Origin: Alcanivorax sp.
GTDB lineage: Bacteria; Pseudomonadota; Gammaproteobacteria; Pseudomonadales; Alcanivoracaceae
Assembly: GCA_022449455.1 (NCBI GenBank)
Contig: JAKUPL010000019.1
Span: forward strand, 1-38,148
Length of the DNA: 38,148 nucleotides
Direction: 5' to 3'
The notes beneath the pieces are model-generated. The model had not been told where the DNA came from. It did no database searches and saw only the letters and a list, made by a program, of their open reading frames with translations. Below are positions 19,059 through 33,066 of this stretch, in pieces. Position numbers and translations under genes: made by a program. Position 1 is the stretch's first letter. Each line of letters opens with the position of its first letter.

Positions 19059-19082
19059 AAATTTAAAGGTGTGGGGTGCGGG

Positions 19083-22000
19083 ATGCGCGGGATTTGTTAT
19101 GGGGTGTTCTTCTTATTGTTTCTAATCCAAGTCGATGCTCGGGCCGCAAGCCTGGCTCCACATTACTTTAAAGTTTATTACGGCGACTTCGATAGCCAAG
19201 AGTTTGGTTTGGATGGGTACGCTGATCTGTATCTTGAGGCGCAAGGTGCCTATGTGCCTTTGGGGGCTGGAGTCACTGCGCCCATGCCTTTCTTGTCCGA
19301 ATATGAAAGTATTCTGCTCTGCGGCACGTCTTCAGGGAATTTCGTTATTTGTAGCCTTGGAGATGGTTTCAACAAAGACGCTGGAGCGTTGGCGAATTTC
19401 CGTATAAAAATTGGCGATTTTGACGACGATGCGCTCCAGGACATTTTTTTGCACTCTCTATCGTCCGCCGAAAAAAGTTTATATCTGCATAATTCAGGGA
19501 ATGGCAATTTTAGCATAAGAGAGCAGTTCTTTTCCATTGATGGTGTCGCTATATCCGGTAATCCGGATGTGTTCGTTTCTGATCAAATGGGGGGGGCGGG
19601 GGCGGAAATCGTTGTAGATGGAAGTTATTACATTGAAGCGCCAAGCGGTGGTTTTGGGAAGATTAATAACATCAAACCCAATTACAATTTGACTGCAGCT
19701 TCGGAGGCGTCGTTTTCGGTTTCTGGTGGCGTGGCGAGCTACACTATCCCGATAAAAGTAGTTAAAGGTGGCGCGGGGATTGCGCCGGCTGTGTCGCTGG
19801 ATTATTCCAGTAATAGTGGGTACGGCCAAGCTGGTATGGGTTTTCAGGTATCAGGGCTTTCCTCGGTAACTCGGTGCGGGAGAAATAAACTTCGAGACGG
19901 TTATATTAAGGGTGTTGACGGGACGACACAGGACCTAGCTTGCTTGGATGGGGTCCGGCTTGTCCTGGAGAGCGGCGATTACTGGGGCCAGGGCTCTATT
20001 TACCGCCCAGAGCGAGAAGATGGCTCAAAGGTTGTATATGAAAATGATGGTTTCGTAGAATATAAGAAGAACGGAGACATTTATTATTACGGCGAAACGG
20101 AAAATTCGCGCTCCCATGGGATGGTTAACGGTCGCCCCGTAGCCACCTGGGGGCTGAGTTTTGTATCTGACCGGCTTGGCTATGGCTATCGCATTAGCTA
20201 TCGGGATGGATATGAAACCTATTTTCCTGAAAGTATTATATATACCGTTCAAAGAGGAAGTGGTGCGCCCGGTTATGCGGGAATTAAGTTTAAGTATGAA
20301 AAGGATCCTTACGGCAACACAACTTCTTTGCTGGGAAGAGAAGTCTATCTTGGTATACGGCTCGCCTCGGTTGAAAGTTTCTCAGATGACCAAATTTTAA
20401 GAAAGTATTACTTGACGTATGAGAGTAATCCGTCGACTCGCCGCTCCTTATTAACTCGCTATGTGGAGTGTGACGCGAGAAATAATTGTTTCCAGCCTAC
20501 AGAGCTTGACTGGCAGCTTGGCCCAAGCCCAAGTTTTGGAAATGGTAGATATATAAAATTCCCTGATCAGCGCGACAACGATGGAATTTTTGAGGAAGGT
20601 TTGCACCGGCCTGGGTTTAATCGCTGGGTAGACATTAATAGAGATGGGTTTGATGATTATTGTAGGGTTTCGCCATCTGATTCTCAGGGGGCCGAAATTG
20701 TATGCTACACGCAAAACGCGTCAAGCTACTTTTCTTTCCTTACGGAAATCGACGATAATTTTGATAGAACATATTATGAATATAATCGAAAAAGGCCGTA
20801 TGACTACCCCAACTGGAATATCGACCCTGCCTGGCGTGACATCAATAATGATGGATACGTAGATTTCTGTGTTTCGCGATCCTTAGGCGAAAAGCTGACG
20901 GCTGGCACGGACACCTTGCAGTGCTGGATCAACAACGGGGAGCTCGATACTGAATTTGACCAGACTGTAACGGCAGAAATTCCGAGACCTGTTCGGGCCA
21001 TGAGTGCTGGGGCGCGCTCTTGGACGGACGTGAATGGTGACGGAGAATTGGATTTTTGCTTCGCATATACCACCGACTCGGAAAAGGATTACATTTCCTG
21101 TTCCATAAAGAAGCAGGGTATTTTTGAGTTTGATCCGGGCTTCACGAAGAGAACAGCGGACTTTGGAGGGTACTGGTCTGACATCAACGGGGACGGTCTG
21201 CCTGATTTCTGTGTTGTCAAGAAGACTGATATCACATGCTATATAAATAATCGCGGTCTCGACTTGGAGGGAGGGCAATGGTCGAAAAACAGTGCAAACC
21301 TCGGCGATATTACTCCGCCCGCCCCTGAGGAAACTTATAGTGGAGGGACGACAAAACATTACTCTGCGGTTTTTGTTGATTTTTATGGCAACGGATATTC
21401 GGATTTTTGTCGTATTTATCCAGCCAAGAAAAATAATTTTCATGGTTATCAGGCGTCATGTTTGGCTTCTACCGGAGAAGGGTGGGGGGCGGACTTAACG
21501 TCTGATTTTATTCCGGTAGTGCAAGCTTACCAAGAAAAATTTGATCGCGCGGTTATGGCTGACGCGACGCAATTTATGGATGTTAATGCCGATGGCCTGA
21601 TGGATTGGTGTATCGAGTTGGGGCTAGAGCTCAAATGTATGCTTTCAGACTCGAATGGTTTTGGTACTGAGATGTCAACTTTTACCCTTCCCGCTTTCGG
21701 TGGATCGCATGGCCTCAAGCATATCAGGGAGGTAAATCGAGGTTGGGCAGACATTAACGGTGACGGGAATTCCAGTTACTGCGCTCTTTACTGGAAGTCG
21801 TTGGGGGACTCATCTGGTGGAATCAATAACCGAGGCATGGCGTGCTACGACTCTGGTTCCGCCGAAAAACACGATTATCTTGTGGGCGTGGAAAACGGCT
21901 TCGGTCTGGAATATTCCGTAGAATACACGGACATCGCAGACCCGACGGTTTACGAACACAGCCGAGATTTGGGTAGCCAGGGGCAGGTGTTCGCGACGTC

Positions 22001-25000
22001 CGGGATGAACGTGGTGTCGAAGTTACGGACATCCAATGGTATCGGGGGCTATAGCGAGCAGGAGTATTTCTATAAAAACTATGGCTATTTGCCTGGTGAA
22101 ATCGGCGGATTGGGCTTTGAATATATAAAAACCACCTCGGAAAACGGCAACAAGGTCGGTGAGGTTTGGTATGGCCAAAGTGTCTATGAGCATCAAGCGG
22201 GCAGGGTAGTCCAAAGCAGAACAAGCCTGAGAGGTAGTTCAGGGCAGCTGGTGACCGTGCGCGAAGAGAATAATGAATGGGAAACCCATTTCTATTCTGG
22301 CTTGGGCTATCAGGATATCAGCGCAACCACGGTTTGGGACGGCGTCGAGGCAACCAACTATCGCTATGGCGTTGAGTTGCTCAGCAGCGAAGTGCAGGAC
22401 TTCGATTTGACCGGGCAGCTCATTCGGACGACGACGACAGAAAACGAATACGATGCAACACAGCTTATTGAACAGTCTATTACCACCGTCGGTCAAAATC
22501 AGACCTTCAATAAAGTTATCCACAACAGCTATTACCAAGATGACTATGTGGGGTGGGTGATTGGGCGCTTAAGCGATTCGCAGACCTCTTACTCACACAG
22601 CTACGGTGGCATGGCTGCTTCGCCCATAACGCGGGAATCTTCCTGGGAGTATTATCAAAGTGGGTCGCCGTTCTATGGGATGTTGAAGAGCGAGACGGTG
22701 GAACCCAACCGGCCTGAGCTTTCTCAAACAACCACCTACACTTATAACTCTTACGGCTTAAAGGCGTCAGTGGTTCAGACTGCCGCCAATGCCAGCCCGC
22801 GCTCGACAGATTATTTGTATGACACTCGTGGTCAGTTCATGGTCCAAGAGAGCAATGCTCTAGGCCATCAGGTGTCCTATGACTATGATGCGGTGACGGG
22901 CAACCTGCTGTCGGTTACTGACCCCAACGGCTTGGTCTCGAATAGTGAATACGATTCCGTTGGCAGGAAAACCCGAGAAACCGCGCCCGATGGAACCAGT
23001 TCTGTCGTGGAGTACAAATCCTGCGCCTTCGGCTGCCCAGCCCAGGCTGTTTATTACACAGAAAGCTGGAGCGAGTCGGCGTCGGGCACGAAAATCTCAT
23101 CCGTGTCTCGTGAGTACATGGACCTATTGGGCCGAGCGGTGGAGGTACGCACCCAAGGTTTCAATGGGGATTGGATCGTCCAGAAAACCGAATATGACTC
23201 GCTGGGTTATGAAAAGCGCGTCAGCGAGCCCTACTACCAAAGCGCTTCTCCACAGTGGAACGTGGTGAGCTCTCGGGATGTTAAAGGGCGGGTTACCCAA
23301 AGAAACAACGCATCAGGTCTGATCGTTGAGATTACTTACAACGGTCTGAGTACGCAGACCATTCGCTCCTGGACGGACCCGTTGAATGGTGCCAGTGAAT
23401 CCAGAACGAGTTCTGTGCTGAACGATGTTTCGGGTAATAAGCGTAGATCTGTCGATAACGGCGGCAGAACGGTCGCCTTCAACTATGACGCCCTCAGTAA
23501 CCTCACTCATATCGATTTGCCCGGTGGCATGAGCGTCACCAATGAGTATGACGTCGTCGGGAGACGAGTCGCTTCCAGCGATCCCAACATCGGTGATTGG
23601 AAATACGGTTATGACGCTTTCGGTCAACTGGTCTTGCAAGAGAACGGTGCCGGCCGGCGCGTTTGCCTCTCATACGATGTGTTGGGGCGGAAAGTAAGCC
23701 GCACCGATGACTACTCTGTGAGTGCCCCTTGGGCCAATGCATTGGCTTCCGCCCTAAATGGTTGTCAGGGGCAGATAGCGTCTACCCAATGGAGTTATGA
23801 CGATACCTCGAAGGGCCTGGGTCGCTTGTCAGGCGTAACGATGGGGGCCGGGTATAGCTCTGAGCCCTTCTATGACGCTTTGGGCCGCCCGATACAAACG
23901 GAGACCAGCTTTGATGGGGAGACTTACCGCAAGTCGACTTCCTACGAAGCGGGAACGGGACGTGTCAGTACGATCACCCCGACACACAGAGTCTCAGGTC
24001 CAGATATTGAGGTGCAATACAGTTACAACGCACGGGGCTTTGTGACGGGGCTCAGTGAGGTGGGGACCCAGACGTCCTTCTGGCAGGTGGTCTCGCAGAA
24101 TGCCAGGGGCGACGTTACCGAGCGCTTGTTATCCGGGGCATTGATCAATCAGGTCATGGGCTATGATTCAGCGACCGGCGTCATGACACAGGTGCGGGCG
24201 AAAGCCGCGCTGGCCTCCGGCTCTGGCTGGAATATACAAAACGAAAGCTATGTTTACGCCGCCAATGGCAATATGAGGCAGCGGGCTCAAGCTATCTTGG
24301 CGATTAACCAGGATTTGGAGGAGACGTTCTCCTACGATTCTCTGGATCGCTTGGTAATGGCGGATGTGGCGAACCTGAACGATGCCAACCTTTCATTCAG
24401 TCAAACCGTCCAATACGACGTTGCCGGGAACATCACTGAACGCAACGATGTGGGGGTCTACCAATATGGTGAGAGCTGTGTTCATCAACAGACCTCATAC
24501 CAACCCGGGCCGCAGGCGGTTACTTCAGTACAAGGGCAGCGTAATCAGCAATATTGTTATGATGCCGCCGGCAATATGGTGAAGGGGGGAGGCCGGGATA
24601 TCTCCTACACGGCGTTCAATAAACCGACATCCATTACCTCAGAAGATGCGCAGATCGCGTTCGTGTACGGCCCGAACCAGAATATGATTAAACGGATCAC
24701 CGATACCAGCAGCGGCATCGTGACCAAGTGGATGTTCGCCGATTACGAGCGCGTTGAAAGTACCGCAAGCGGTGCCCCTTCTTTGAGAGAGCGCTGGACC
24801 TTGCCCGGTGGCGTTGTGGTGTCGGTTGAGGACGATGATCTTGAATCGAAGAAGGAGGAGTACCTCTTCTCCGATACACTGGGCAGTGTTGCAGCCGTGA
24901 CTAACGGCATGGGAGCCGTCAACGAGCGATATCGTTACGACCCCTGGGGGCGCCCCCGCGAGACCTTGGACTGGAGCGCCATCTCGGACGCTGCCTGGTT

Positions 25001-26261
25001 CGATATGGAGCGGGACCAGGGCGCCACCGGGAAAGGCTTCACGGGCCATGAGATGTTGGATCAAGTTGGCATCGTCCACATGGGCGGAAGAATCTATGAC
25101 CCGACCATCGGACGTTTCCTGAGCGCGGATCCTGTTGTGAAAGGGCTGGACAATGCTGAGAGCTACAATCGGTATAGCTATGTGTTGAACAGCCCCATGA
25201 GCTACACGGATCCCTCGGGCTACTCCTGGTTGAGCGATGCCTGGGATGACATAACGGACTTCGTAAAAGATCACTTCAAAGAGGTTCTTGCGGTATTTAA
25301 TCCCCAACTGGCGCTGATGGAAGCATCGACTCGTTACGGGGGGCGTGAACTCGCGCGATTTGCCGCGAAGAACAAGTACGCCGGCGAAGTGATAGGGCTG
25401 GTTGGTACCGTTGGTTGTTCGCTGAGCACTGCGGGCGCAGGTACCGCGGGTTGCGTTGCCGCTTTTCAGGGGTGGACCTCCGGGGCCATGGCTTACGGTA
25501 CGGGGGCGCCTGTGCAGCAGGCGTTGCTTGCTGGCGGTAAATCTGCGGCTCTAGCCTATGCAAACATAAGCGTTGCTGGGGGCATTGCTGATATGAATCT
25601 GGGTGCGTTCGGAAGTGGGGTTGCCCATGGGGCAAGAGGCGCCTTCTTCGCTGGCATCGCTGGGGGAGACGTCCGCTCCGGATTCCTTGGCGGGGCCACC
25701 GAGGGTGTCCTGGGTGACTCGATTCAAACCTGGACGGATGGTGATCCTATGCGTGGCACCATTGCGGCGGCTTTTATCAGTGGGTCTGTGTCTCAGGTAA
25801 CCGGCGGAAAATTCGCTGTGGGGGCTGCTACAGGCGCGATGGGGTATCTATTTAATCAGATGTCCGTGGATTCATCTGACCCTAACGGCGAGCCTTTTAT
25901 CGCTAATGACAAGCTGAATAGGGCGGCAAGAGATGTCTTGGCTCCGCCTGGAAGTATTAGAGAAATAGATGAAAATGGGCGGCTAATATATTCACTTCCT
26001 ATTGACTGGGAAGCACACCCGTTGCCGCATGGTGGAGGGTTTGTCATCGCGCGGCCGGATTGGCGGCCGATGAATGGTTTGCAAAGTGTAGTGAGGGTTC
26101 AGCCTGCTGGCACGGGTTCTTCAGGTTATAATCCTAAAGGGTACTTCGTTGTATATAATAAAAATGGTCAGCCAATAAGTCCTTATTCGGGTAGGACTGT
26201 GCCACCCAGAAAGCACCATAACGATTTTTCCATAGTCATTCCGGGCAAATTTGCAGAGTAA
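19083..26261 (+). CDS. secreted SpvB/FG-GAP/RHS-repeat polymorphic toxin
   Basis: A 2392-residue protein. Signal peptide about 1-21 (GVFFLLFLIQVDARA). The SpvB/TcdB N-terminal domain is marked by GGVASYTIPIKVVKGGAGIAP near 214-234 and GMGFQVSGLSSVTRCGRN near 250-268. Seven FG-GAP-like repeats of the form W-x-D-[IV]-N-x-D-G-x-x-D-F-C fall at about 515, 583, 646, 698, 763, 831 and 888, each followed by a second cysteine 8-25 residues later. YD/RHS repeats run from about 1210 to 1950. The RHS core ends with GRIYDPTIGRFLSADP near 2003-2018 and DPSGY near 2042. About 345 residues remain: a glycine-rich hydrophobic region, then a tip of about 115 residues from PFIANDKL with PRKHHNDFS near the end. 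RHS shells enclose such tips before delivery. I do not recognise the tip's activity. I prefer the ATG at 19083 over the GTG at 19071. The N-terminal third and tip are AT-richer than the RHS part, suggesting a mosaic. Confidence 0.9.
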   Translation: MRGICYGVFFLLFLIQVDARAASLAPHYFKVYYGDFDSQEFGLDGYADLYLEAQGAYVPLGAGVTAPMPFLSEYESILLCGTSSGNFVICSLGDGFNKDAGALANFRIKIGDFDDDALQDIFLHSLSSAEKSLYLHNSGNGNFSIREQFFSIDGVAISGNPDVFVSDQMGGAGAEIVVDGSYYIEAPSGGFGKINNIKPNYNLTAASEASFSVSGGVASYTIPIKVVKGGAGIAPAVSLDYSSNSGYGQAGMGFQVSGLSSVTRCGRNKLRDGYIKGVDGTTQDLACLDGVRLVLESGDYWGQGSIYRPEREDGSKVVYENDGFVEYKKNGDIYYYGETENSRSHGMVNGRPVATWGLSFVSDRLGYGYRISYRDGYETYFPESIIYTVQRGSGAPGYAGIKFKYEKDPYGNTTSLLGREVYLGIRLASVESFSDDQILRKYYLTYESNPSTRRSLLTRYVECDARNNCFQPTELDWQLGPSPSFGNGRYIKFPDQRDNDGIFEEGLHRPGFNRWVDINRDGFDDYCRVSPSDSQGAEIVCYTQNASSYFSFLTEIDDNFDRTYYEYNRKRPYDYPNWNIDPAWRDINNDGYVDFCVSRSLGEKLTAGTDTLQCWINNGELDTEFDQTVTAEIPRPVRAMSAGARSWTDVNGDGELDFCFAYTTDSEKDYISCSIKKQGIFEFDPGFTKRTADFGGYWSDINGDGLPDFCVVKKTDITCYINNRGLDLEGGQWSKNSANLGDITPPAPEETYSGGTTKHYSAVFVDFYGNGYSDFCRIYPAKKNNFHGYQASCLASTGEGWGADLTSDFIPVVQAYQEKFDRAVMADATQFMDVNADGLMDWCIELGLELKCMLSDSNGFGTEMSTFTLPAFGGSHGLKHIREVNRGWADINGDGNSSYCALYWKSLGDSSGGINNRGMACYDSGSAEKHDYLVGVENGFGLEYSVEYTDIADPTVYEHSRDLGSQGQVFATSGMNVVSKLRTSNGIGGYSEQEYFYKNYGYLPGEIGGLGFEYIKTTSENGNKVGEVWYGQSVYEHQAGRVVQSRTSLRGSSGQLVTVREENNEWETHFYSGLGYQDISATTVWDGVEATNYRYGVELLSSEVQDFDLTGQLIRTTTTENEYDATQLIEQSITTVGQNQTFNKVIHNSYYQDDYVGWVIGRLSDSQTSYSHSYGGMAASPITRESSWEYYQSGSPFYGMLKSETVEPNRPELSQTTTYTYNSYGLKASVVQTAANASPRSTDYLYDTRGQFMVQESNALGHQVSYDYDAVTGNLLSVTDPNGLVSNSEYDSVGRKTRETAPDGTSSVVEYKSCAFGCPAQAVYYTESWSESASGTKISSVSREYMDLLGRAVEVRTQGFNGDWIVQKTEYDSLGYEKRVSEPYYQSASPQWNVVSSRDVKGRVTQRNNASGLIVEITYNGLSTQTIRSWTDPLNGASESRTSSVLNDVSGNKRRSVDNGGRTVAFNYDALSNLTHIDLPGGMSVTNEYDVVGRRVASSDPNIGDWKYGYDAFGQLVLQENGAGRRVCLSYDVLGRKVSRTDDYSVSAPWANALASALNGCQGQIASTQWSYDDTSKGLGRLSGVTMGAGYSSEPFYDALGRPIQTETSFDGETYRKSTSYEAGTGRVSTITPTHRVSGPDIEVQYSYNARGFVTGLSEVGTQTSFWQVVSQNARGDVTERLLSGALINQVMGYDSATGVMTQVRAKAALASGSGWNIQNESYVYAANGNMRQRAQAILAINQDLEETFSYDSLDRLVMADVANLNDANLSFSQTVQYDVAGNITERNDVGVYQYGESCVHQQTSYQPGPQAVTSVQGQRNQQYCYDAAGNMVKGGGRDISYTAFNKPTSITSEDAQIAFVYGPNQNMIKRITDTSSGIVTKWMFADYERVESTASGAPSLRERWTLPGGVVVSVEDDDLESKKEEYLFSDTLGSVAAVTNGMGAVNERYRYDPWGRPRETLDWSAISDAAWFDMERDQGATGKGFTGHEMLDQVGIVHMGGRIYDPTIGRFLSADPVVKGLDNAESYNRYSYVLNSPMSYTDPSGYSWLSDAWDDITDFVKDHFKEVLAVFNPQLALMEASTRYGGRELARFAAKNKYAGEVIGLVGTVGCSLSTAGAGTAGCVAAFQGWTSGAMAYGTGAPVQQALLAGGKSAALAYANISVAGGIADMNLGAFGSGVAHGARGAFFAGIAGGDVRSGFLGGATEGVLGDSIQTWTDGDPMRGTIAAAFISGSVSQVTGGKFAVGAATGAMGYLFNQMSVDSSDPNGEPFIANDKLNRAARDVLAPPGSIREIDENGRLIYSLPIDWEAHPLPHGGGFVIARPDWRPMNGLQSVVRVQPAGTGSSGYNPKGYFVVYNKNGQPISPYSGRTVPPRKHHNDFSIVIPGKFAE

Positions 26262-26730: not shown

Positions 26731-26964
26731 CAGGGTTGGGCCTCGGCAAGTTATTGAATTTATTGCATAAATCAGGTTTTTGGCAATTTTTTTGCCTTGA
26801 AAAAGCTTTTCTGAGCTGGTAAATGCCGGTTCTCCGCGTAGGAGAGTGTCCGGCCCTGTTCTTCTGGGGGCCTTTAGCTGCCTTCAAAGCGCCCCAAGGC
26901 CTGTATATTGGGTTGCGTGGCCGAGGCTTTTCTTATAAATCAGTGGGTTTTATAATCCGACCCC
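26731..26964. repeat. inverted-repeat element, copy A
   Basis: About 234 bases closely similar to copy B and sharing both ends with C and D. The left end is degenerate (GGGTTGGGCCTCGGCAAG) and the right end is ATCCGACCCC. Inside are the hairpin GGCAATTTTTTTGCC and the block AAGGCCTGTATATTGGG. The left border carries three tandem 10-13-base units (GCTGCCCCGG type). It lies between two broken genes, the frame after the immunity gene and a lipoprotein gene, so it marks a recombination joint. It encodes no transposase. Confidence 0.8.
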
Positions 26965-27086
26965 GGGTTTTTGTTGGCGGACGTCTCCGGTTCCGCGTCG
27001 GGTCGATAATTGTCGTCCTCGCAGGCGGACAGCAGTACGGATGCGGCGAGCAGCGCCGCCATGGCGTGGTGTTTTTCGAGTTTCAT
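26940..27086 (-). pseudogene. lipoprotein gene fragment, N-terminal part only
   Basis: From the ATG at 27084-27086 the minus strand encodes a signal sequence with the lipobox ASVLLSAC followed by EDDNYRPDAEPE. It is almost the same as the start of the neighbouring intact lipoprotein (ASVLLTAC, EDDNYRPDPEP). After about 40 residues the frame enters repeat copy A and stops at 26940. It is therefore a paralogue that lost everything but its export signal when copy A or the DNA beyond it arrived. Confidence 0.7.
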
Positions 27087-27167
27087 TTCGAGTCGCCCCC
27101 CTGAGAGCGTGAGCTCGGCCGGACCTTGCCACCCTGGCTCGGTCCCGGCCGGGGCCGGTGGTGGTGA

Positions 27168-28058
27168 TCAGTGATTGATAAAAGCCAGATATTCGTCGCA
27201 GGTGCGTTCCGGCTGAGCCACGCCATTAACGGACACCACGATGTGGTCCTGGCCGTTGAAGGTGGCGCTGGTGTAGCTGCCGTCGGCGGCGGTGAGCGTC
27301 AGCGTGCCGGACACCGCGCAGGACGACCCGGACGGGCGGCGCAGGCCGTCGCTGCCGGTGTCCACGGTGAGGTAGCTGTCGCTCCCGGGCAGGCTGATGC
27401 CGCCGTTCATGATCTGAATGATGTCGCCGCCGCTGAGCGAGCTCTGAACCTGGAAGTCCTGGAAGCCCAACTCCACGATTTTGTCGCTGGAAAGAAGCGC
27501 CTGGAATTTGTAGTGCCCGTTGGCCACATAGCTCGGTGGCGATGAGATGGGACCGGGAAAATCAATGGTGCCGTCGAATTCGACGACTTGGTGATCGGGG
27601 CCAAACAACAGTTCCTCGGAGAACCCGTCCATGGACAGCTGTACTAAATTTCCCACATCGCCGTATTCATAATTCACCACGCCTTTGGTTAAAACGTAAG
27701 CGTTGGCGCCATAACTGAGTTTGCAGTCGTTGTAGGTCGTGCTGGCAATCCGACCAATACCGGCGGTTTGCACAACCATATCGCCGCTACCTTCGTCGTT
27801 GCCGAAATGGCACGAGCCGGTAAAGGCTTGATCAGCAAGCTGAGGCCAATAGTTAATGATCTTCGGCGCCGCGAAATAGCTTTCGGTGGATTGGTTAAGC
27901 GCCACCGGCGCGCTGGTTTCGGTGACGGTGGGTTCGCCCGGTTCCGGATCCGGGCGGTAATTATCGTCTTCGCAGGCGGTGAGCAGTACGGACGCGCACA
28001 GCACGGCGGGCACGCCCCAGCGGATCGCCGGAGCGTGGCGGTAAGAATAAAGTCTCAT
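27168..28058 (-). CDS. lipoprotein of a tandem paralogous family, member 1
   Basis: A 296-residue predicted lipoprotein with lipobox VLLTAC (lipidated Cys29) followed by an acidic linker (EDDNYRPDPEPGEP), the usual pattern for an outer-membrane or periplasm-facing lipoprotein. The mature part appears beta-rich, with cysteine-bearing segments SCHFGND, NDCKLSYG, GSSCAVSGTLTLTAADG and a final RTCDEYLAF. The order of a C-x-x-x-x-L-[ST]-[LV]-T segment, then a beta strand with V-x-V-[NT]-G, then a last cysteine near the C-terminus is shared with the two genes upstream. I do not recognise a named family. GGGA precedes the ATG. A purine-rich, AT-rich 126-base gap separates it from the next gene and may hold its own promoter. 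Confidence 0.75.
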   Translation of the reverse strand: MRLYSYRHAPAIRWGVPAVLCASVLLTACEDDNYRPDPEPGEPTVTETSAPVALNQSTESYFAAPKIINYWPQLADQAFTGSCHFGNDEGSGDMVVQTAGIGRIASTTYNDCKLSYGANAYVLTKGVVNYEYGDVGNLVQLSMDGFSEELLFGPDHQVVEFDGTIDFPGPISSPPSYVANGHYKFQALLSSDKIVELGFQDFQVQSSLSGGDIIQIMNGGISLPGSDSYLTVDTGSDGLRRPSGSSCAVSGTLTLTAADGSYTSATFNGQDHIVVSVNGVAQPERTCDEYLAFINH

Positions 28059-28184
28059 TTTTCCCTATCCCAAGGCAATTTTTTCTTAAGTTTTATGGAA
28101 ATAATGCAATAAAAAATTGTTGAGGAAGCCTATCGGGGTAGGAATGAAAAGGAAAATGAAATTTTGCGTGCACCCCGAAGACGT

Positions 28185-29144
28185 TTAGTGCGCGATCACC
28201 AGCGCCGCCATCGGGTCGGCTAGGTCGAGCAGTTCGCCGCAATCGATCAGCCGGGCATTGCCGTTGGTGGTGATCACTGCTTCATCGGCGTGCTGAACGC
28301 TGAGGCGCACCTGGCTGTCTTCCGCGCCGGTGACGGTCAGGTCGCCGGAGTCCGGGCAGGCCGCCATGGAGGTGGACAGCAGCGGATCGGTGTCCACGTC
28401 GATGAATCCGGCGGGTTGATCCGGGCCGGTCAGCGACAGCCGCCCGCGGGCGCCGATGCCCATGCCACCGGTCATCAGATCCACGGCGAACGGCACGGCG
28501 AAATCCTGCAATCGCCACTCCCGAGCATGCAGGGACTGATTGTCCTCCAGGTACTCGAAGGCCAGGGTCAGCCCGGCGTCGCTGACGCTGGCGAACGGCA
28601 GGCCGGCGATCGGGTCCGGTGTCATGCGCAGGGTGCCGTCCAGGCGGGTGCGGTTGCCGTACACGGTGCCGCCCTGATTTTCGCGCAGGTCGGAAACGAA
28701 GGCCGTGGCGTCGACCTGGAAGGGCGAGGCCGGGTCGGCGCTGTCGTACTGGAAAGCCAGGTCGCCGTCGAGCATCAGGTCGGTGTCCGGCCCCAGGGAG
28801 ATCCGGCAGTTTTCATAATCAATCGCGGTGACGCGCCCGGCGCCGTCCGGTTCAGTTTCCCGTGCCACGGTGCCGTCGTTGTCGCAGGCGGTCACCGGCA
28901 TCACCACGCTGTACATGTTCAGGTCGTAGGCCACGTTCAGGGTCATCAGGTTGGTGACGAATATCGCCTCGCCCAGCAAGGATTCGGCGTTTTGCGCGTC
29001 CACGGCGATGGCTCGGGCATCGTTGTCCGGTGGCGTACTGTCGACGGGGCGGTGATCATGGTCGCCGCCACAGGCAGCGAGCAGCAGAACGAGGCCGGGC
29101 AGAACCCGGCGCGGAAGCGATAAGAACCTGAGTGGTGCGAACAT
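28185..29144 (-). CDS. lipoprotein of the tandem family, member 2
   Basis: A 319-residue predicted lipoprotein: signal peptide RVLPGLVLLLAAC (lipidated Cys25) followed by GGDHDHRPVDSTPPDND. Matching its neighbours, it has TACDNDGTV and YENCRISLGPDTDLMLDGDLAF in the first half, and MAACPDSGDLTVTGAEDSQ followed by AVITTNGNARLIDCGELLDL at the end. Cysteine placement agrees with members 1 and 3, so two disulfides are likely. It is more GC-rich than the RHS locus, so the lipoprotein cluster probably has a different origin. Function is unknown. Confidence 0.75.
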   Translation of the reverse strand: MFAPLRFLSLPRRVLPGLVLLLAACGGDHDHRPVDSTPPDNDARAIAVDAQNAESLLGEAIFVTNLMTLNVAYDLNMYSVVMPVTACDNDGTVARETEPDGAGRVTAIDYENCRISLGPDTDLMLDGDLAFQYDSADPASPFQVDATAFVSDLRENQGGTVYGNRTRLDGTLRMTPDPIAGLPFASVSDAGLTLAFEYLEDNQSLHAREWRLQDFAVPFAVDLMTGGMGIGARGRLSLTGPDQPAGFIDVDTDPLLSTSMAACPDSGDLTVTGAEDSQVRLSVQHADEAVITTNGNARLIDCGELLDLADPMAALVIAH

Positions 29145-29201
29145 GGGTATTCCCCCTGGCGGTGCGTTGTTGTTGCGCCGCAGTCTGCCAAGGGGAAAGG
29201 G

Positions 29202-29219
29202 CGCCGGCTTTCACCGGCG
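29202..29219 (-). terminator. hairpin after lipoprotein member 3
   Basis: CGCCGG and CCGGCG pair around a six-base loop, followed on the minus strand by a T/C-rich stretch. It lies 17 bases after the member 3 stop and just before the member 2 start, so it may reduce read-through. Confidence 0.45.
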
Positions 29220-29236
29220 TCCCGTCGCAATGTGCA

Positions 29237-30163
29237 TTATGTCCCGGGGCTGGTTGGCGGGGACGGCATTTGGGAGAACATCCATTCCTCGAAAGCATCG
29301 CAATCGTAATCGGCGGTGATACCGTTGATGGTCACCGTGATGGGGGTGCCGAAATTCAGGCTGAGGGAGGTGCCGTCGCCGCCGGTGATTGTCAGACTCC
29401 CACCGGCGGGGCAGTAAAGATCGCTTTCGAATGACAGAACGGTGTCGGTGACCACCGTGACCAGCCCTTCGAGCGGACCGGAGAAGCTCAGATCGCCATC
29501 CAGACGTCTGCCGTCCACGCCCTCGTTCAGGTATTCGGAGGTGGCGTCGAAACCCTGGTAATCCATGGTCAGATCGAGAAACGGCGCGTCTTCGCCATCA
29601 AGCGTGCCGCTCAACCTCAGCGTGGCCTCGATGTTTATAAAGTCCACCTCGTCGGAGCCGGTGCCGGGTACCAGGTCGAAGCCACCGTCCAACTGGCTTT
29701 TTTGAACGATGACGTAATCGCTGGACTGGGTCTGTTCGAAACGAAGCGCCTCGGCGTCCAGCCGGGTGAGCGCGCCACCATCGTATTCCAGGCTTACGGT
29801 ACCGTCCGCGACATTGCCGGTGGTGTACTCGCAGTGATCGAACTGAATCAGTGTCGGGTTCGGCGTGCCCTCCGGCTCCAGCAGAACGCCGCCGTTCAGG
29901 CAGCCTCCGTCGAGCACATTGCCCAATGCCTCATAGATCTGCTGCTGCATCACGCCATAGCGCAATGAATCGTATTGTTCGAGAACCAGGCCGGCCAGGG
30001 TGCCGGCGTTGTCCTCGCTGACGACCAGGCGGTTGACGCCCGTATCCTCCTCCATGTAGTCGGAATCGGAATCGTCGTCACAGGCGCTGAGCAGGACGGC
30101 GGTGAAGGCGATAAGCGGCAAGGAAAGCGCCAAGGAGGCGCTCGAGCGATAGGCGGGTTTCAT
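29237..30163 (-). CDS. lipoprotein of the tandem family, member 3
   Basis: A 308-residue predicted lipoprotein with signal peptide SLPLIAFTAVLLSAC (lipidated Cys28) and a strongly acidic linker DDDSDSDYMEED. The shared pattern is clear: DGGCLNGGVLLEPEG and FDHCEYTTGNVADGTVSLEY in the first half, and LYCPAGGSLTITGGDGTSLSL then ITVTINGITADYDCDAFEEW at the end. It is the most upstream member on the minus strand. The ~190 bases ahead of it contain no clear gene and lead to repeat copy C. Family function is unknown; repeated duplication suggests a variable surface or periplasmic role (inference). Confidence 0.75.
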   Translation of the reverse strand: MKPAYRSSASLALSLPLIAFTAVLLSACDDDSDSDYMEEDTGVNRLVVSEDNAGTLAGLVLEQYDSLRYGVMQQQIYEALGNVLDGGCLNGGVLLEPEGTPNPTLIQFDHCEYTTGNVADGTVSLEYDGGALTRLDAEALRFEQTQSSDYVIVQKSQLDGGFDLVPGTGSDEVDFINIEATLRLSGTLDGEDAPFLDLTMDYQGFDATSEYLNEGVDGRRLDGDLSFSGPLEGLVTVVTDTVLSFESDLYCPAGGSLTITGGDGTSLSLNFGTPITVTINGITADYDCDAFEEWMFSQMPSPPTSPGT

Positions 30164-30349
30164 CGTTGTTCTCCGGCTGCGGCATGCTGAAAACGGACCA
30201 TCATCATCCGTTCCTGCAAACCCTAGCGGCCGGAGGTGGTAAAGAAATTCCCCTAATCAGGGGTGACAAGGGGTAGTGTGAAGGCGGTCACATGGCCGCG
30301 TGGCTCAGTGCCCGCCATCGCCAGCGGGCCAGGCCACCCGGGGCCACCC

Positions 30350-30529
30350 GGGGTCGGACCTCGACAAGTCATTGATTTAATGAAATACCGGCTGTTAACG
30401 CGGGGCGCGTCCGGTCTTTTTTCCCTTAGGAGGGCCTTTTTGCTGTCGTAAAAGCAGCCTAAGGCCTGTAAACCTGCCCGCTATATAATGGTTTTTCTTA
30501 TAAATCAGTGGCTTGTGGTGGTCTGACCC
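30350..30529. repeat. inverted-repeat element, copy C (internally deleted)
   Basis: 180 bases from GGGGTCGGACCTCGACAAG to GTGGTGGTCTGACCC. It follows copy D closely (shared CCGGCTGTTAACGC, GCTGTCGTAAAAGCAGCC, TAAACCTGCCCGCTATATAA) but lacks about 50 bases of D's left half. The left border is a perfect tandem pair of GGCCACCCGG. The right end joins directly to a pteridine reductase gene fragment, just as copy D joins to the intact gene. Confidence 0.8.
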
Positions 30530-30531
30530 GG

Positions 30532-30694
30532 TCAGGTGTCATCATCGCCAGGCCGGCTTTGGCCATGCAGTAGAGGGGATGGTCGGCGAGAGGCTTCTCC
30601 GCGTACAGGTCCACCAGGTTGACGATGGCGCCCCGGCCGGAGCGGGCCAGGTCGTCGGCCAGGGCCTGGCTGAGCAAAGGGGGCGCGCGCAGGT
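30532..30694 (-). pseudogene. fragment of the pteridine reductase gene
   Basis: Bases 30538-30694 match 32576-32732 of the intact reductase gene with only about five differences in 157. The first seven (TCAGGTG) match that gene's stop region. About 240 bases between the two matching parts are missing and the join is out of frame, so the copy cannot be functional. It encodes the segment around the catalytic tyrosine (NLVDLYAEKPLADHPLYCMAKAG in pattern). It lies between copies C and B. Confidence 0.85.
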
Positions 30695-30711
30695 CCTGCC
30701 CGGGCCTGCCC

Positions 30712-30949
30712 GGGGTCGGACCTCGGCAAGTCATTGAATCTATTGGATTAAGCCGGGTTCTCTGGCAATTTTTTTGCCTTGGAGGGGCCTTTCTGAGCTG
30801 CTAAATACCGGTTTTCCGCGTAGGAGAGCGTCTGGCTTTGTTCTTCTGGAGGCCTTTTGGGCCGCCTTCAAAGCGCCCCAAGGCCTGTATATTGGGTTGC
30901 GTGGCCGAGGCTTTTCTTATAAATCAGTGGGTTGTTGTGGTCCGACCCC
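30712..30949. repeat. inverted-repeat element, copy B
   Basis: 238 bases, ends GGGGTCGGACCTCGGCAAG and GTTGTGGTCCGACCCC, with the inverted ends extending to CCCGGGG/CCCCGGG. It is highly similar to copy A, including the GGCAATTTTTTTGCC hairpin and the TTCCGCGTAGGAGAG and AAGGCCTGTATATTGGG blocks. The left border is a perfect tandem pair of CCTGCCCGGG. It separates the reductase fragment from the AT-rich membrane-protein cassette. Confidence 0.85.
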
Positions 30950-30978
30950 GGGTTTGCCGGTTTTTCAGGAGAACGGCA

Positions 30979-31290
30979 TTGAATATAGGGATTTTGATAG
31001 GTTGGGTGGCGGGCGTTTTTCTTATCGTTTACATGGTGTCCGTTGTGAGGCTTTATTCAGTCTTAAAAAAAGAATGGAGGTGGTTCTGGGAAGAAAAAGG
31101 CGCGCCAAGTATTACTGACCCGAACGGGCAAATAAAAATATTTTCTCTTTTGGTGTTGGGGCGAGGATTGGATGATGACTTTAGAGAAAAGAATAGACGT
31201 TCCATAGCTTTGGTTAGAGTGTCTTTCTTCGTTGCGTCTCTATCGTTCTTGCTGATTTGCGCAATGATCTTTTTGGGGGCTTATGATTAG
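30979..31290 (+). CDS. small two-helix membrane protein, cassette gene 1
   Basis: A 103-residue protein starting at TTG with a clean CAGGAG six bases upstream; no ATG is near. One hydrophobic helix lies at about residues 3-24 (IGILIGWVAGVFLIVYMVSVV) and another at about 78-99 (LVRVSFFVASLSFLLICAMIF). Between them is a soluble stretch with WRWFWEEKGAPS and LGRGLDDDFREKNRR. The layout (helix, charged middle, basic patch, helix) repeats in the next gene, so they are probably distant paralogues. AT-rich codon use contrasts with the chromosome. I do not recognise a family. A membrane immunity protein would be one possibility beside a polymorphic toxin locus, but no matching toxin is present. Confidence 0.6.
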   Translation: MNIGILIGWVAGVFLIVYMVSVVRLYSVLKKEWRWFWEEKGAPSITDPNGQIKIFSLLVLGRGLDDDFREKNRRSIALVRVSFFVASLSFLLICAMIFLGAYD

Positions 31291-31313
31291 GTTTGATGGT
31301 TTTGGGGTGAGAG

Positions 31314-31595
31314 ATGAATGACTTTGTTTTTTATTCAGGGTTTGCTCTTGTGGTCATTTTCATTGCCTGTATTTCCTTCTTCATAGAGAAGGTCAGGAGG
31401 GGGCTGGATGAGGACATTGGCTTCATAAAGCTGTGGTGGATGATTGGCTGTATGGATTTTTGGGATGGCTTTGATGTTGGTGGGGCCGACAGGGAAAGAA
31501 TTGTCTCAGCATATGGAAAAATAAAGAGAAGTACCATTGTGTTTGCTTTCTTTATGGTTGCTTTCAGTCTTTTTTTTGAAACGGTTAAAGGCTGA
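31314..31595 (+). CDS. small two-helix membrane protein, cassette gene 2
   Basis: A 93-residue protein with ribosome site GGGGTGAGAG directly before its ATG. Helix 1 is at about residues 4-24 (FVFYSGFALVVIFIACISFFI) and helix 2 at about 74-90 (STIVFAFFMVAFSLFF). The middle contains RRGLDEDIGFIKLWWMIGCMDFW and DRERIVSAYGKIKRS. It follows gene 1 by 23 bases and shares its layout. The reading frame after the stop also looks protein-like in another frame up to about 31690. Function is unknown. Confidence 0.6.
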   Translation: MNDFVFYSGFALVVIFIACISFFIEKVRRGLDEDIGFIKLWWMIGCMDFWDGFDVGGADRERIVSAYGKIKRSTIVFAFFMVAFSLFFETVKG

Positions 31596-31685
31596 AGGTC
31601 TGTCCGAGAATAAAGAACTTACCTATGATGTGGCTGGTTGGTATGGTTTGAGCCGCTTGGTTTCGCTGATTCAGAAAAGGGTTAA

Positions 31686-32069
31686 GTGGACGTGGAAAGC
31701 AGGGCATACAGAAATATTGAGGTGGAGTGGGGTAAGGGGGCGTATGGCGCTATTTTCATGATGCCTTCCTTGCTTTATTTCCATTACGACGACATCGTTC
31801 TTCCGGTTGGTCTGGTTATTTTTAATGCGTTGGCAATATATATTCCCAGGCCCATAAGGTTTCTGTTCCTGAATGACCCATTTTTTAGGTTTTCCATCTG
31901 TTCGTTTTTCTTTATTTCTGTCTTTTTTTGCTTTATCGGTGGCTGGGTGCTTGATGGTCTGGAGGTTATTCCTCCAGTGGCATTGAGTGGTGCTGCTTAT
32001 ATTTTTATGTGGGCCTATAGGCCTGAAAAAAAGCTCGAAGAATTCGGTTGGAAGAACATAGAAAAATAG
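31686..32069 (+). CDS. membrane protein, cassette gene 3 (start uncertain, possibly frameshifted)
   Basis: A 127-residue frame starting at a GTG immediately after an in-frame TAA, with AAGGG five bases upstream. Hydrophobic segments lie at about 22-58, 66-89 and 94-111. Upstream, a different frame (about 31580-31690) encodes LSENKELTYDVAGWYGLSRL and VSLIQKRVK, which look like genuine protein and would flow naturally into this gene. A single indel could therefore have split a longer gene, with this frame as its 3' part. The product ends in EFGWKNIEK, 19 bases before repeat copy D. The base composition is that of genes 1 and 2. Function is unknown. Confidence 0.5.
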   Translation: MDVESRAYRNIEVEWGKGAYGAIFMMPSLLYFHYDDIVLPVGLVIFNALAIYIPRPIRFLFLNDPFFRFSICSFFFISVFFCFIGGWVLDGLEVIPPVALSGAAYIFMWAYRPEKKLEEFGWKNIEK

Positions 32070-32088
32070 GACGTTGTCGACGCTGCCC

Positions 32089-32326
32089 GGGGTCGGATCT
32101 CGACAAGTCATTGAGTTGATTGATTTAAATGAGCTTTATGGCGGCTATTTTGGGCTTGGGCGGCTTTTTTGGGGTGGCAAATACCGGCTGTTAACGCAGG
32201 GCGCGCCCGGTCTTTTTCCCCTTAGAAGGGGCTTTTTGCTGTCGTAAAAGCAGCCTAAGGCCTGTAAACCTGCCCGCTATATAATGGTTTTTCTTATAAA
32301 TCAGTGACTTGTGGTGGTCCGACCCC
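32089..32326. repeat. inverted-repeat element, copy D
   Basis: 238 bases, the same length as copy B, from GGGGTCGGATCTCGACAAG to CTTGTGGTGGTCCGACCCC. The ends form an imperfect inverted repeat of about 30 bases (GGGGTCGGACC, ACAAG, CA, TGATTTA shared). The interior matches copy C. Its right end is two bases from the stop codon of the pteridine reductase, so the element abuts the conserved chromosome. Confidence 0.85.
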
Positions 32327-32328
32327 GA

Positions 32329-33066
32329 TCAGGTGCCGGCGAGGGCGAGGGAGCGGCCGCCGTCCACGGCCAGGATCTGGCCGGTGACGTAGGGGGCGTC
32401 CAGGGCGAGCCAGGTCACCGCGCCGGCGATGTCGTCCGGGTCGCCGGCCCGTTTCAGGGCGCTGGCCTTGAGTACCGCGTCCTGGTCGGCGCCGCCCTGT
32501 TCGGGCCACAGGATCGGGCCCGGCGAGACGCCGTTGACGCGTACCGACGGGCCCAGGTCGCGGGCCAGGCTTTTGGTCATCATCGCCAGGCCGGCCTTGG
32601 CCATGCAGTAGAGGGGATGGTCGGCGAGAGGCTTCTCCGCGTACACGTCCACCAGGTTGACGATGGCGCCCCGGCCGGAGCGGGCCAGGTCGCCGGCCAG
32701 GGCCTGGCTGAGCAAAAAGGGCGCGCGCAGGTTGCCGTGCACCAGCTCGTCCCAGTCGTGATCGGTGGCGTCGGCCAGGGGGGTGGGGTAGAAGCTGGAG
32801 GCGTTGTTGACTAGCAGATCCAGGCCGCCGAAACAGGCGCGGGCCTCGGCGGCCAGCCGGCGCACGGCGGCCGGGTCGCTCAGGTCCGCCTGCAGGCAGG
32901 TGGCGCTGTCCACCCGCGTGGCGTTCAGCTCCGCCGCCAGGGCCCGGGCCTCGGCCTCGCTGTTGCGGTAATGGATCACTACCCGACAATCGCGGGCGTG
33001 CAGGGCGCGGACGATGCGCGCGCCGATGCGGCGGGCGCTGCCGGTGACCAGCGCTATGGCTGCCAT
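32329..33066 (-). CDS. pteridine reductase / dihydromonapterin-type SDR
   Basis: A 245-residue SDR of the pteridine-reductase branch, which reduces dihydropterins or dihydrofolate with NADPH and fits the neighbouring folate genes. TGSARRIGARIV (about residues 8-19) has the arginine-rich cofactor loop of that branch in place of TGxxxGIG. NNASSFYPTPLAD near 86-98 is its typical substrate motif. The catalytic YCMAKAG is near 157-163, SPGPILWPE near 184-192 and VTGQILAVDGG near the end. It overlaps cca by 13 bases on the same strand. FolM-like is the closest named function, but I would not fix the symbol. A damaged partial copy lies at 30532-30694. Confidence 0.85.
   Translation of the reverse strand: MAAIALVTGSARRIGARIVRALHARDCRVVIHYRNSEAEARALAAELNATRVDSATCLQADLSDPAAVRRLAAEARACFGGLDLLVNNASSFYPTPLADATDHDWDELVHGNLRAPFLLSQALAGDLARSGRGAIVNLVDVYAEKPLADHPLYCMAKAGLAMMTKSLARDLGPSVRVNGVSPGPILWPEQGGADQDAVLKASALKRAGDPDDIAGAVTWLALDAPYVTGQILAVDGGRSLALAGT

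Follow-up and report, generated by a model that had tools for sequence, protein, structure and literature searches.

Gene-less inverted-repeat elements in an Alcanivorax genome appear to share compound ends with a Y1-transposase element

An initial annotation of a 38,148-nt stretch of contig JAKUPL010000019.1 from Alcanivorax sp. (in the following called the window) had described a family of four gene-less inverted-repeat elements, called A to D. We found all four copies where they had been placed (Table 1; coordinates are window positions unless a locus label beginning with L is given). B and D are each 238 bp long, as claimed, but this size is just one value in a range, shared by six of the 43 elements compared below. 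The proposed pairwise likeness also held, with 86% identity between A and B (across query positions 2–238) and 95% between C and D over 147 nt, while C lacks about 57 nt that are present in the left part of D. Common to A–D is the tip GGGGTCGGACC plus its inverse, although the outer bases of the left end of A are decayed. The motif AAGGCCTGTA, thought to be central, actually sits in the right half. The sole open reading frame (ORF) tested among those running through the copies (30838–31290) matched no Pfam family, and the Rfam covariance models did not match the elements; the single hit at or above the gathering score in the window was a tRNA.

Table 1 Elements A–D, features around them and copies elsewhere in the genome. 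E-values refer to the end profile described in the text. Gene names here and in the text (folM, fabI, icd, ppiD-like and others) are presumed on the basis of the encoded proteins, unless a Pfam result is given.
Feature	Position	Strand	Remarks
RHS-repeat gene	19071–26261		RHS_repeat, FG-GAP and SpvB matches
Element A, two-ended full copy, decayed left tip	26733..26964	+	Left half 26733–26830, E 8e-8; right half 26894–26963, E 0.34
Element C, shortened 181-bp copy	30350..30530	+	Halves 30350–30458, E 2e-10, and 30424–30529, E 7e-12
Copied fragment of folM-like gene, adjoins C	30538..30694	+	97% to 32576–32732
Element B, full copy	30712..30949	+	Halves 30712–30812, E 4e-11, and 30876–30949, E 4e-7
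Orphan 127-aa ORF between B and D	31686..32069	+	74% to the ORF directly after a related RHS gene in G021
Element D, full copy	32089..32326	+	Halves 32089–32183, E 9e-9, and 32220–32326, E 4e-13
Short-chain dehydrogenase gene, neighbor of D, outside the element	32329..33066	-	folM-like, presumably folM; Pfam adh_short_C2
Own-genome copy	Downstream of ppiD-like gene, upstream of fabI		
Own-genome copy	Downstream of icd		
Own-genome copies, two	Contig C56		

A candidate for the longer, autonomous copy envisaged in the initial annotation lies on contig C67 of the same genome. At L038:1531–2467, two of these tips in inverted orientation enclose a single intact gene, which encodes the 252-amino-acid protein P0001. 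This protein matches Pfam Y1_Tnp with 34.8 bits (cut-off 23). For its predicted structure (30 sequences, mean pLDDT 85.5, pTM 0.85), the best match found by Foldseek within the PDB library was the E. coli REP (repetitive extragenic palindrome) transposase 4er8 (E 9e-7), followed by IS608 and ISDra2; searches of P0001 with PADLOC and by sequence against the PDB gave no match. The residues H60, H62 and Y120 are invariant in 30 aligned transposase sequences, from which L087 and L125 (stop codons) as well as L109 and L095 were left out and into which 47 of 80 relatives were not entered. The tyrosine motif of P0001 reads YIDLNM, with N124 invariant and M125 nearly so. The Y1_Tnp search of the genome gave five matches, four of them above the cut-off. 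The four matches other than P0001 lie on contigs C28, C70 and C23, one of them below the cut-off, and the stretches around those on C28 and C70 contain no tip when one mismatch is allowed.

The same ends flank related transposase genes in other genera. We sought the tip within 300 bp of the gene, allowing one mismatch, in the best 80 of 471 related loci, whose source labels name Alloalcanivorax, Thioalkalivibrio, many other Proteobacteria and some other phyla. It was present upstream in 61, downstream in 68 and on both sides in 55 of these 80 loci, compared to none upstream and two downstream for the reversed-pattern control.

An ungapped comparison of 53 upstream and 60 downstream ends, with near-duplicates removed, delineated the fixed architecture of one end. 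It spans ~108 nt and consists of an outer inverted repeat at positions 1–30, within which positions 2–11 are 88–100% conserved, and of an inner quasi-palindrome at fixed distance, whose blocks are spaced 12 bp apart (CTTA at 67–70, TTTT at 79–82, AAAA at 91–94 and TAAG at 103–106). The CTTA-TTT anchor fits best at position 67 in 39/53 upstream and 46/60 downstream ends; 43 upstream and 50 downstream ends reach an anchor score of 6 or 7 (maximum 7), compared to means of 3.1 and 4.2 after shuffling of the positions after 30. Upstream, the inner block falls within the leader of the gene; downstream, it overlaps the end of the coding region, where coding constraint may add to its conservation. Covariation between positions of the inner block is weak (among about 1,080 pairs in 140 sequences, the highest z is 3.3; no formal control), and because of this we read the block as a double-strand quasi-palindrome. 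The gene-less elements consist of two such ends, head to head, and the outer 30 nt of the two ends pair in 43/43 elements in folds predicted with RNA parameters.

A sequence-only profile of 80 transposase-flanking ends, none of them from Alloalcanivorax, matched seven of the eight half-elements in the window at E ≤ 4e-7, whereas the best non-element match in the 38 kb had an E-value of 1.3, with fragments overlapping the elements set aside (these E-values are rough). Searching the own-genome loci with the profile yielded 59 matches (E ≤ 1), 39 of which begin at model position 1–2 and extend to at least 94, including both ends of the P0001 element.

The elements occur throughout the 4.22-Mb genome, which is Alloalcanivorax-like. 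The pattern GGGGTCNGACC was found 60 times on both strands together, and its reversed version 15 times. In the stretches around most of these matches we counted 18 full elements, A–D included, and a search of 24 own-genome loci with the end profile (E ≤ 1e-3) added 12 single ends. These copies and those in relatives speak against an island-specific repeat, one of the outcomes considered initially; likewise, the consensus did not prove to be a known insertion sequence end or an ordinary RNA. All copies whose surroundings we examined are intergenic, and at three places merely 2–3 bp separate the element from a stop codon (D at folM with 2 bp, L008 at fabI and L021 at 1930). The own-genome elements are mostly diverged from each other; close pairs are A/B, the segmental C/D pair and L029/L037. 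The latter two elements (L029:1359–1584 and L037:84–310) are 97% identical and lie near two contig ends; genome G021 has a comparable pair, 96% identical and likewise close to contig ends, perhaps beside a duplicated locus.

From four genomes, we compiled a list of 43 elements by pairing ends with at most one mismatch at distances of 150–275 bp; element A, whose ends exceed one mismatch, and an artefact pair at 30518–30724 were left out. Thirty-eight elements measure 222–269 bp, four 170–172 bp and one, C, 181 bp. The 170–172 bp forms (L132, L174, L204) make up four of the 12 elements in genome G020 and were not seen among 17 own-genome and 13 G021 elements. Two of them, at folM and fabI, are orthologues of full-length own-genome elements and show, by eye, one fused inner block; the other two are neighboring copies within G020. 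No element of the 43 has a flank duplication of at least 3 nt, and three share 2 nt, with 0.9 expected. The base next to the element is C in 78% and the second base in 57% of 86 flanks (orthologues were counted separately here and in the duplication counts that follow). At 22 of 85 ends, compared to 11 of 1531 control places, the flank together with the GGGG tip is tandemly duplicated (period 7–32, 90% alike), for instance at 30337–30360 and 30699–30724; slippage at the base of a hairpin and nicking by a transposase both fit these duplications. Over nine orthologous pairs, identity amounts to 196/198 in the tips, 310/342 at positions 12–30, 531/648 at 31–66, 624/720 at 67–106 and 165/207 in the middle. 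The tips are under stricter conservation than the remaining element.

Four of 46 family genomes contain exact full pairs (13 in the own genome, 12 in G021, seven in G020 and one in G024); the other 42 have none, and the reversed-pattern control is zero in all 46. Relatives of P0001 (E ≤ 1e-20) were found in three of the 46, namely the own genome, G021 and G020, such that one genus has transposase-positive and transposase-negative species side by side. The hit coordinates of G021 and G020 agree with those in the A. marinus and A. gelatiniphagus assemblies, respectively.

Presence of the elements varies between species at folM, fabI, C56 and icd. At folM, 13 genomes were compared: an element is present in the own genome, G021 (89% identical to D) and G020, decayed in G024 and not found within the 1.5 kb scanned in nine others, although in three of these a solitary tip with one mismatch occurs beyond the query, on its far side. 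The fabI site, found in 12 of the 13 genomes, is occupied in the own genome, G021 and G020, and the 320 nt inspected in the other nine contain no element. On contig C56, the first site carries an element in the own genome and G021 and a decayed remnant in G022; the second carries one in the own genome and none in G021, G022 and G024. At icd, the own genome has elements on both sides of two genes, one of them a DUF2789 gene and the other a 137-aa ORF that matches no Pfam family (L020:2164–3362). G020 has both genes and the far element only, and in G022 and G024 the start of DUF2789 follows icd. A single element and neither gene are found there in G021 (L212:1442–1668). Over its left 94 bp, this element matches the first own-genome element at 74%; its last 33 bp, continuous with the flank, align with the end of the second. 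This element is likely, though not proven, to be a chimera of the two; the tips are alike family-wide.

Within the window, C together with the adjoining folM fragment is a copy of D plus folM minus about 240 bp, since the right flanks of C and D are 97% identical over 157 nt while their left flanks are unlike. In G024, the start of a lipoprotein gene is followed by a decayed element and folM; because of this order, C probably marks the old junction, and the block from B to D would have arrived with a partial duplication. The flanks of A and B are unlike past about 13 nt, as is expected of a moved copy given the likeness of the two elements. The orphan ORF between B and D probably is a displaced gene of an RHS module, because its relative in G021 directly follows an RHS gene. 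A 124-aa ORF comes next after the RHS-repeat gene in the window, and a small ORF at 31314–31595 had no relatives in a search of the genome contigs. Three lipoprotein-like ORFs without Pfam match lie in a row on the minus strand at 26987–30163; of a fourth, a truncated 5′ fragment adjoins element A. The statement that copies sit at every module junction of the island proved too strong, as the folK side has no end-profile match. A role in organizing cassette exchange is partly backed by the C/D duplication, which copied part of folM, and by the G021 icd locus lacking the two element-flanked genes; against it stand the many copies at plain gene ends far from the island.

Taken together, we consider it probable that A–D are gene-less, non-autonomous elements made of two ends of an HUH/Y1-transposase element placed head to head. 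The initial reading as non-autonomous mobile elements is well supported by sequence, as such ends enclose a Y1 gene, recur in other genera and co-occur with the transposase in the family. The best reading is that they represent the TIRYT/TIRtron kind in a variant with resolved compound ends, which P0001 would mobilize in trans. P0001, produced from the complete copy, would recognize and bind both ends of a gene-less copy, act on the strand or hairpin that brings them together, and cut and rejoin at the GGGG tip; insertion would occur beside C-rich sequence and leave no target duplication. Such elements may still be mobile at present. Resident copies also take part in rearrangements, with one likely deletion at icd and one segmental duplication in the island.

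Several observations weigh against this interpretation. No movement of the elements was observed. The right half of A scores poorly with the end profile, and the profile favors typical ends, as 22 of 102 non-redundant ends were removed from it by hand as atypical. In 25/80 transposase loci the tip is missing on at least one side inside 300 bp, although in some the record stops earlier. P0001 reaches 62.2 bits with NCBIfam REP_Tyr_transpos, under the cut-off of 80. The ends of its element are not close to any single own-genome element, and therefore no copy is a recent derivative of it. In G024, one intact element, 95% identical to L031, is present, but no P0001 relative was found at the threshold used. 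Of 38 transposase-bearing genomes tested, 36 are from outside Alloalcanivorax; 32 of these have no exact element and four have one or two exact pairs. Amplification is thus not general.

These points have to be seen together with the alternatives. Were A–D miniature inverted-repeat transposable elements (MITEs) of an ordinary DDE-transposase insertion sequence, their inverted ends, lack of genes and size of 170–269 bp would fit, but the gene inside the same ends is of the Y1/HUH type and target-site duplications are absent from all 43 elements, which makes this origin extremely improbable. It is also improbable that we are dealing with a family of structured RNAs or transcription terminators that is retained at gene ends, one member of which merely happens to contain the transposase gene. 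Copies do adjoin stop codons at several places, and B and D fold better than 200 shuffled sequences (z −4.2 with DNA and −4.6 with RNA parameters). The folding, however, comes mostly from the paired outer ends, as it would in any inverted repeat, Rfam yielded no match, the inner block shows no clear covariation, and the ends flank a transposase gene on both sides in many genera.

A different possibility is that the elements are dead relics of an old spread, with a transposase by now domesticated or idle and with changes arising only by point mutation, segmental duplication and recombination. The divergence of most own-genome elements and the scarcity of close pairs agree with this, and domestication has been proposed for TnpA-REP genes, which are termed domesticated in the available part of PMC8266576. 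Nevertheless, we regard this explanation as rather unlikely: the nine orthologous pairs have kept 99% identity in the tips against 80% in the middle, close species differ in the presence of elements at icd and C56, and A resembles B without a corresponding likeness of the flanks.

Going further, we tentatively suggest a reading that we hold possible but doubtful. An HUH/Y1 transposase may know its ends not by a single-strand REP hairpin but by a long two-part site, composed of the outer inverted repeat and an inner quasi-palindrome phased by 12 bp and read as double strand, a site that many genera would have conserved. In genomes that keep the transposase, gene-less copies might be maintained, with tips held and interior turned over, and could act as joints at which intervening genes are deleted.

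A literature search for a description of the A–D family found none, with partial journal coverage; searching with the letters of the tip gave no match on bacterial repeats as judged by title, and among the matches listed for Alcanivorax with MITE, inverted repeat or transposase none was relevant by title. Known systems offer closer comparisons. IS200/IS605 transposases such as those of IS608 and ISDra2 have the HUH/Y1 fold in common with P0001, but the elements here contain no TnpB. Members of that family are not known to duplicate their target, a further point in common, nor are they known to have long terminal inverted repeats. The accessible text of Quentin et al. 2018 (PMC6006769) describes the ends of this family as small subterminal hairpins.

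REPINs, as far as described in the available portions of PMC3116915 and PMC2817692, are likewise dispersed, gene-less pairs of inverted ends that form a hairpin, with singles as remnants, and are correlated with a single-copy Y1 transposase (RAYT) flanked by the same ends (Bertels and Rainey 2011; Nunvar et al. 2010). They are the functional parallel of the A–D family. However, the ends here carry GGGGTCGGACC and no GT[AG]G- or GGAG-tagged REP hairpin, and measure ~108 nt, compared to some 20–40 bp for a REP in those portions, with about 30 copies or ends rather than hundreds.

According to the accessible parts of PMC6006769, TnpAY1 subclass 2.1 ranks second in size among the classes of TnpA-like Y1 proteins, has no REPs and no assigned substrate, and includes most TIRYTs, a placement for which confirmation was called for. 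P0001 resembles this subclass, as far as it is described there, in being a long class-2-like protein with an NHVH motif, a C-terminal extension and no REP hairpins. It differs in the class 2 signature, Y---NP, in place of which it has YIDLNM, and therefore we stop short of counting it as proven to belong there. If P0001 is near subclass 2.1, the ends with their fixed inner motif and the matching gene-less family would constitute a defined candidate substrate.

The closest match is the TIRYT/TIRtron (Di Nocera and colleagues 2013, PMC3733652), which, in the part of the description available, consists of a Y1 transposase gene within long terminal inverted repeats (TIRs), many of them sharing the motif GGGGWSAS at similar distance from the gene, and is accompanied in some species by TIR repeat families that are partly dimers. 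Similarly, P0001 is encoded by a RAYT-like Y1 gene (Pfam Y1_Tnp, 4er8 fold, H60/H62/Y120) that lies between long inverted repeats with no relation to GTAG REPs. When compared with GGGGWSAS, the tip GGGGTCGGACC / GGGGTCGG fits at 7/8 positions and copies with GGGGTCAG at 8/8. The 108-nt compound end, the inner block phased by 12 bp and this genus do not appear in that part of the description. We file the elements under the already known TIRYT/TIRtron kind, with the resolved compound ends as the putative variant found here.

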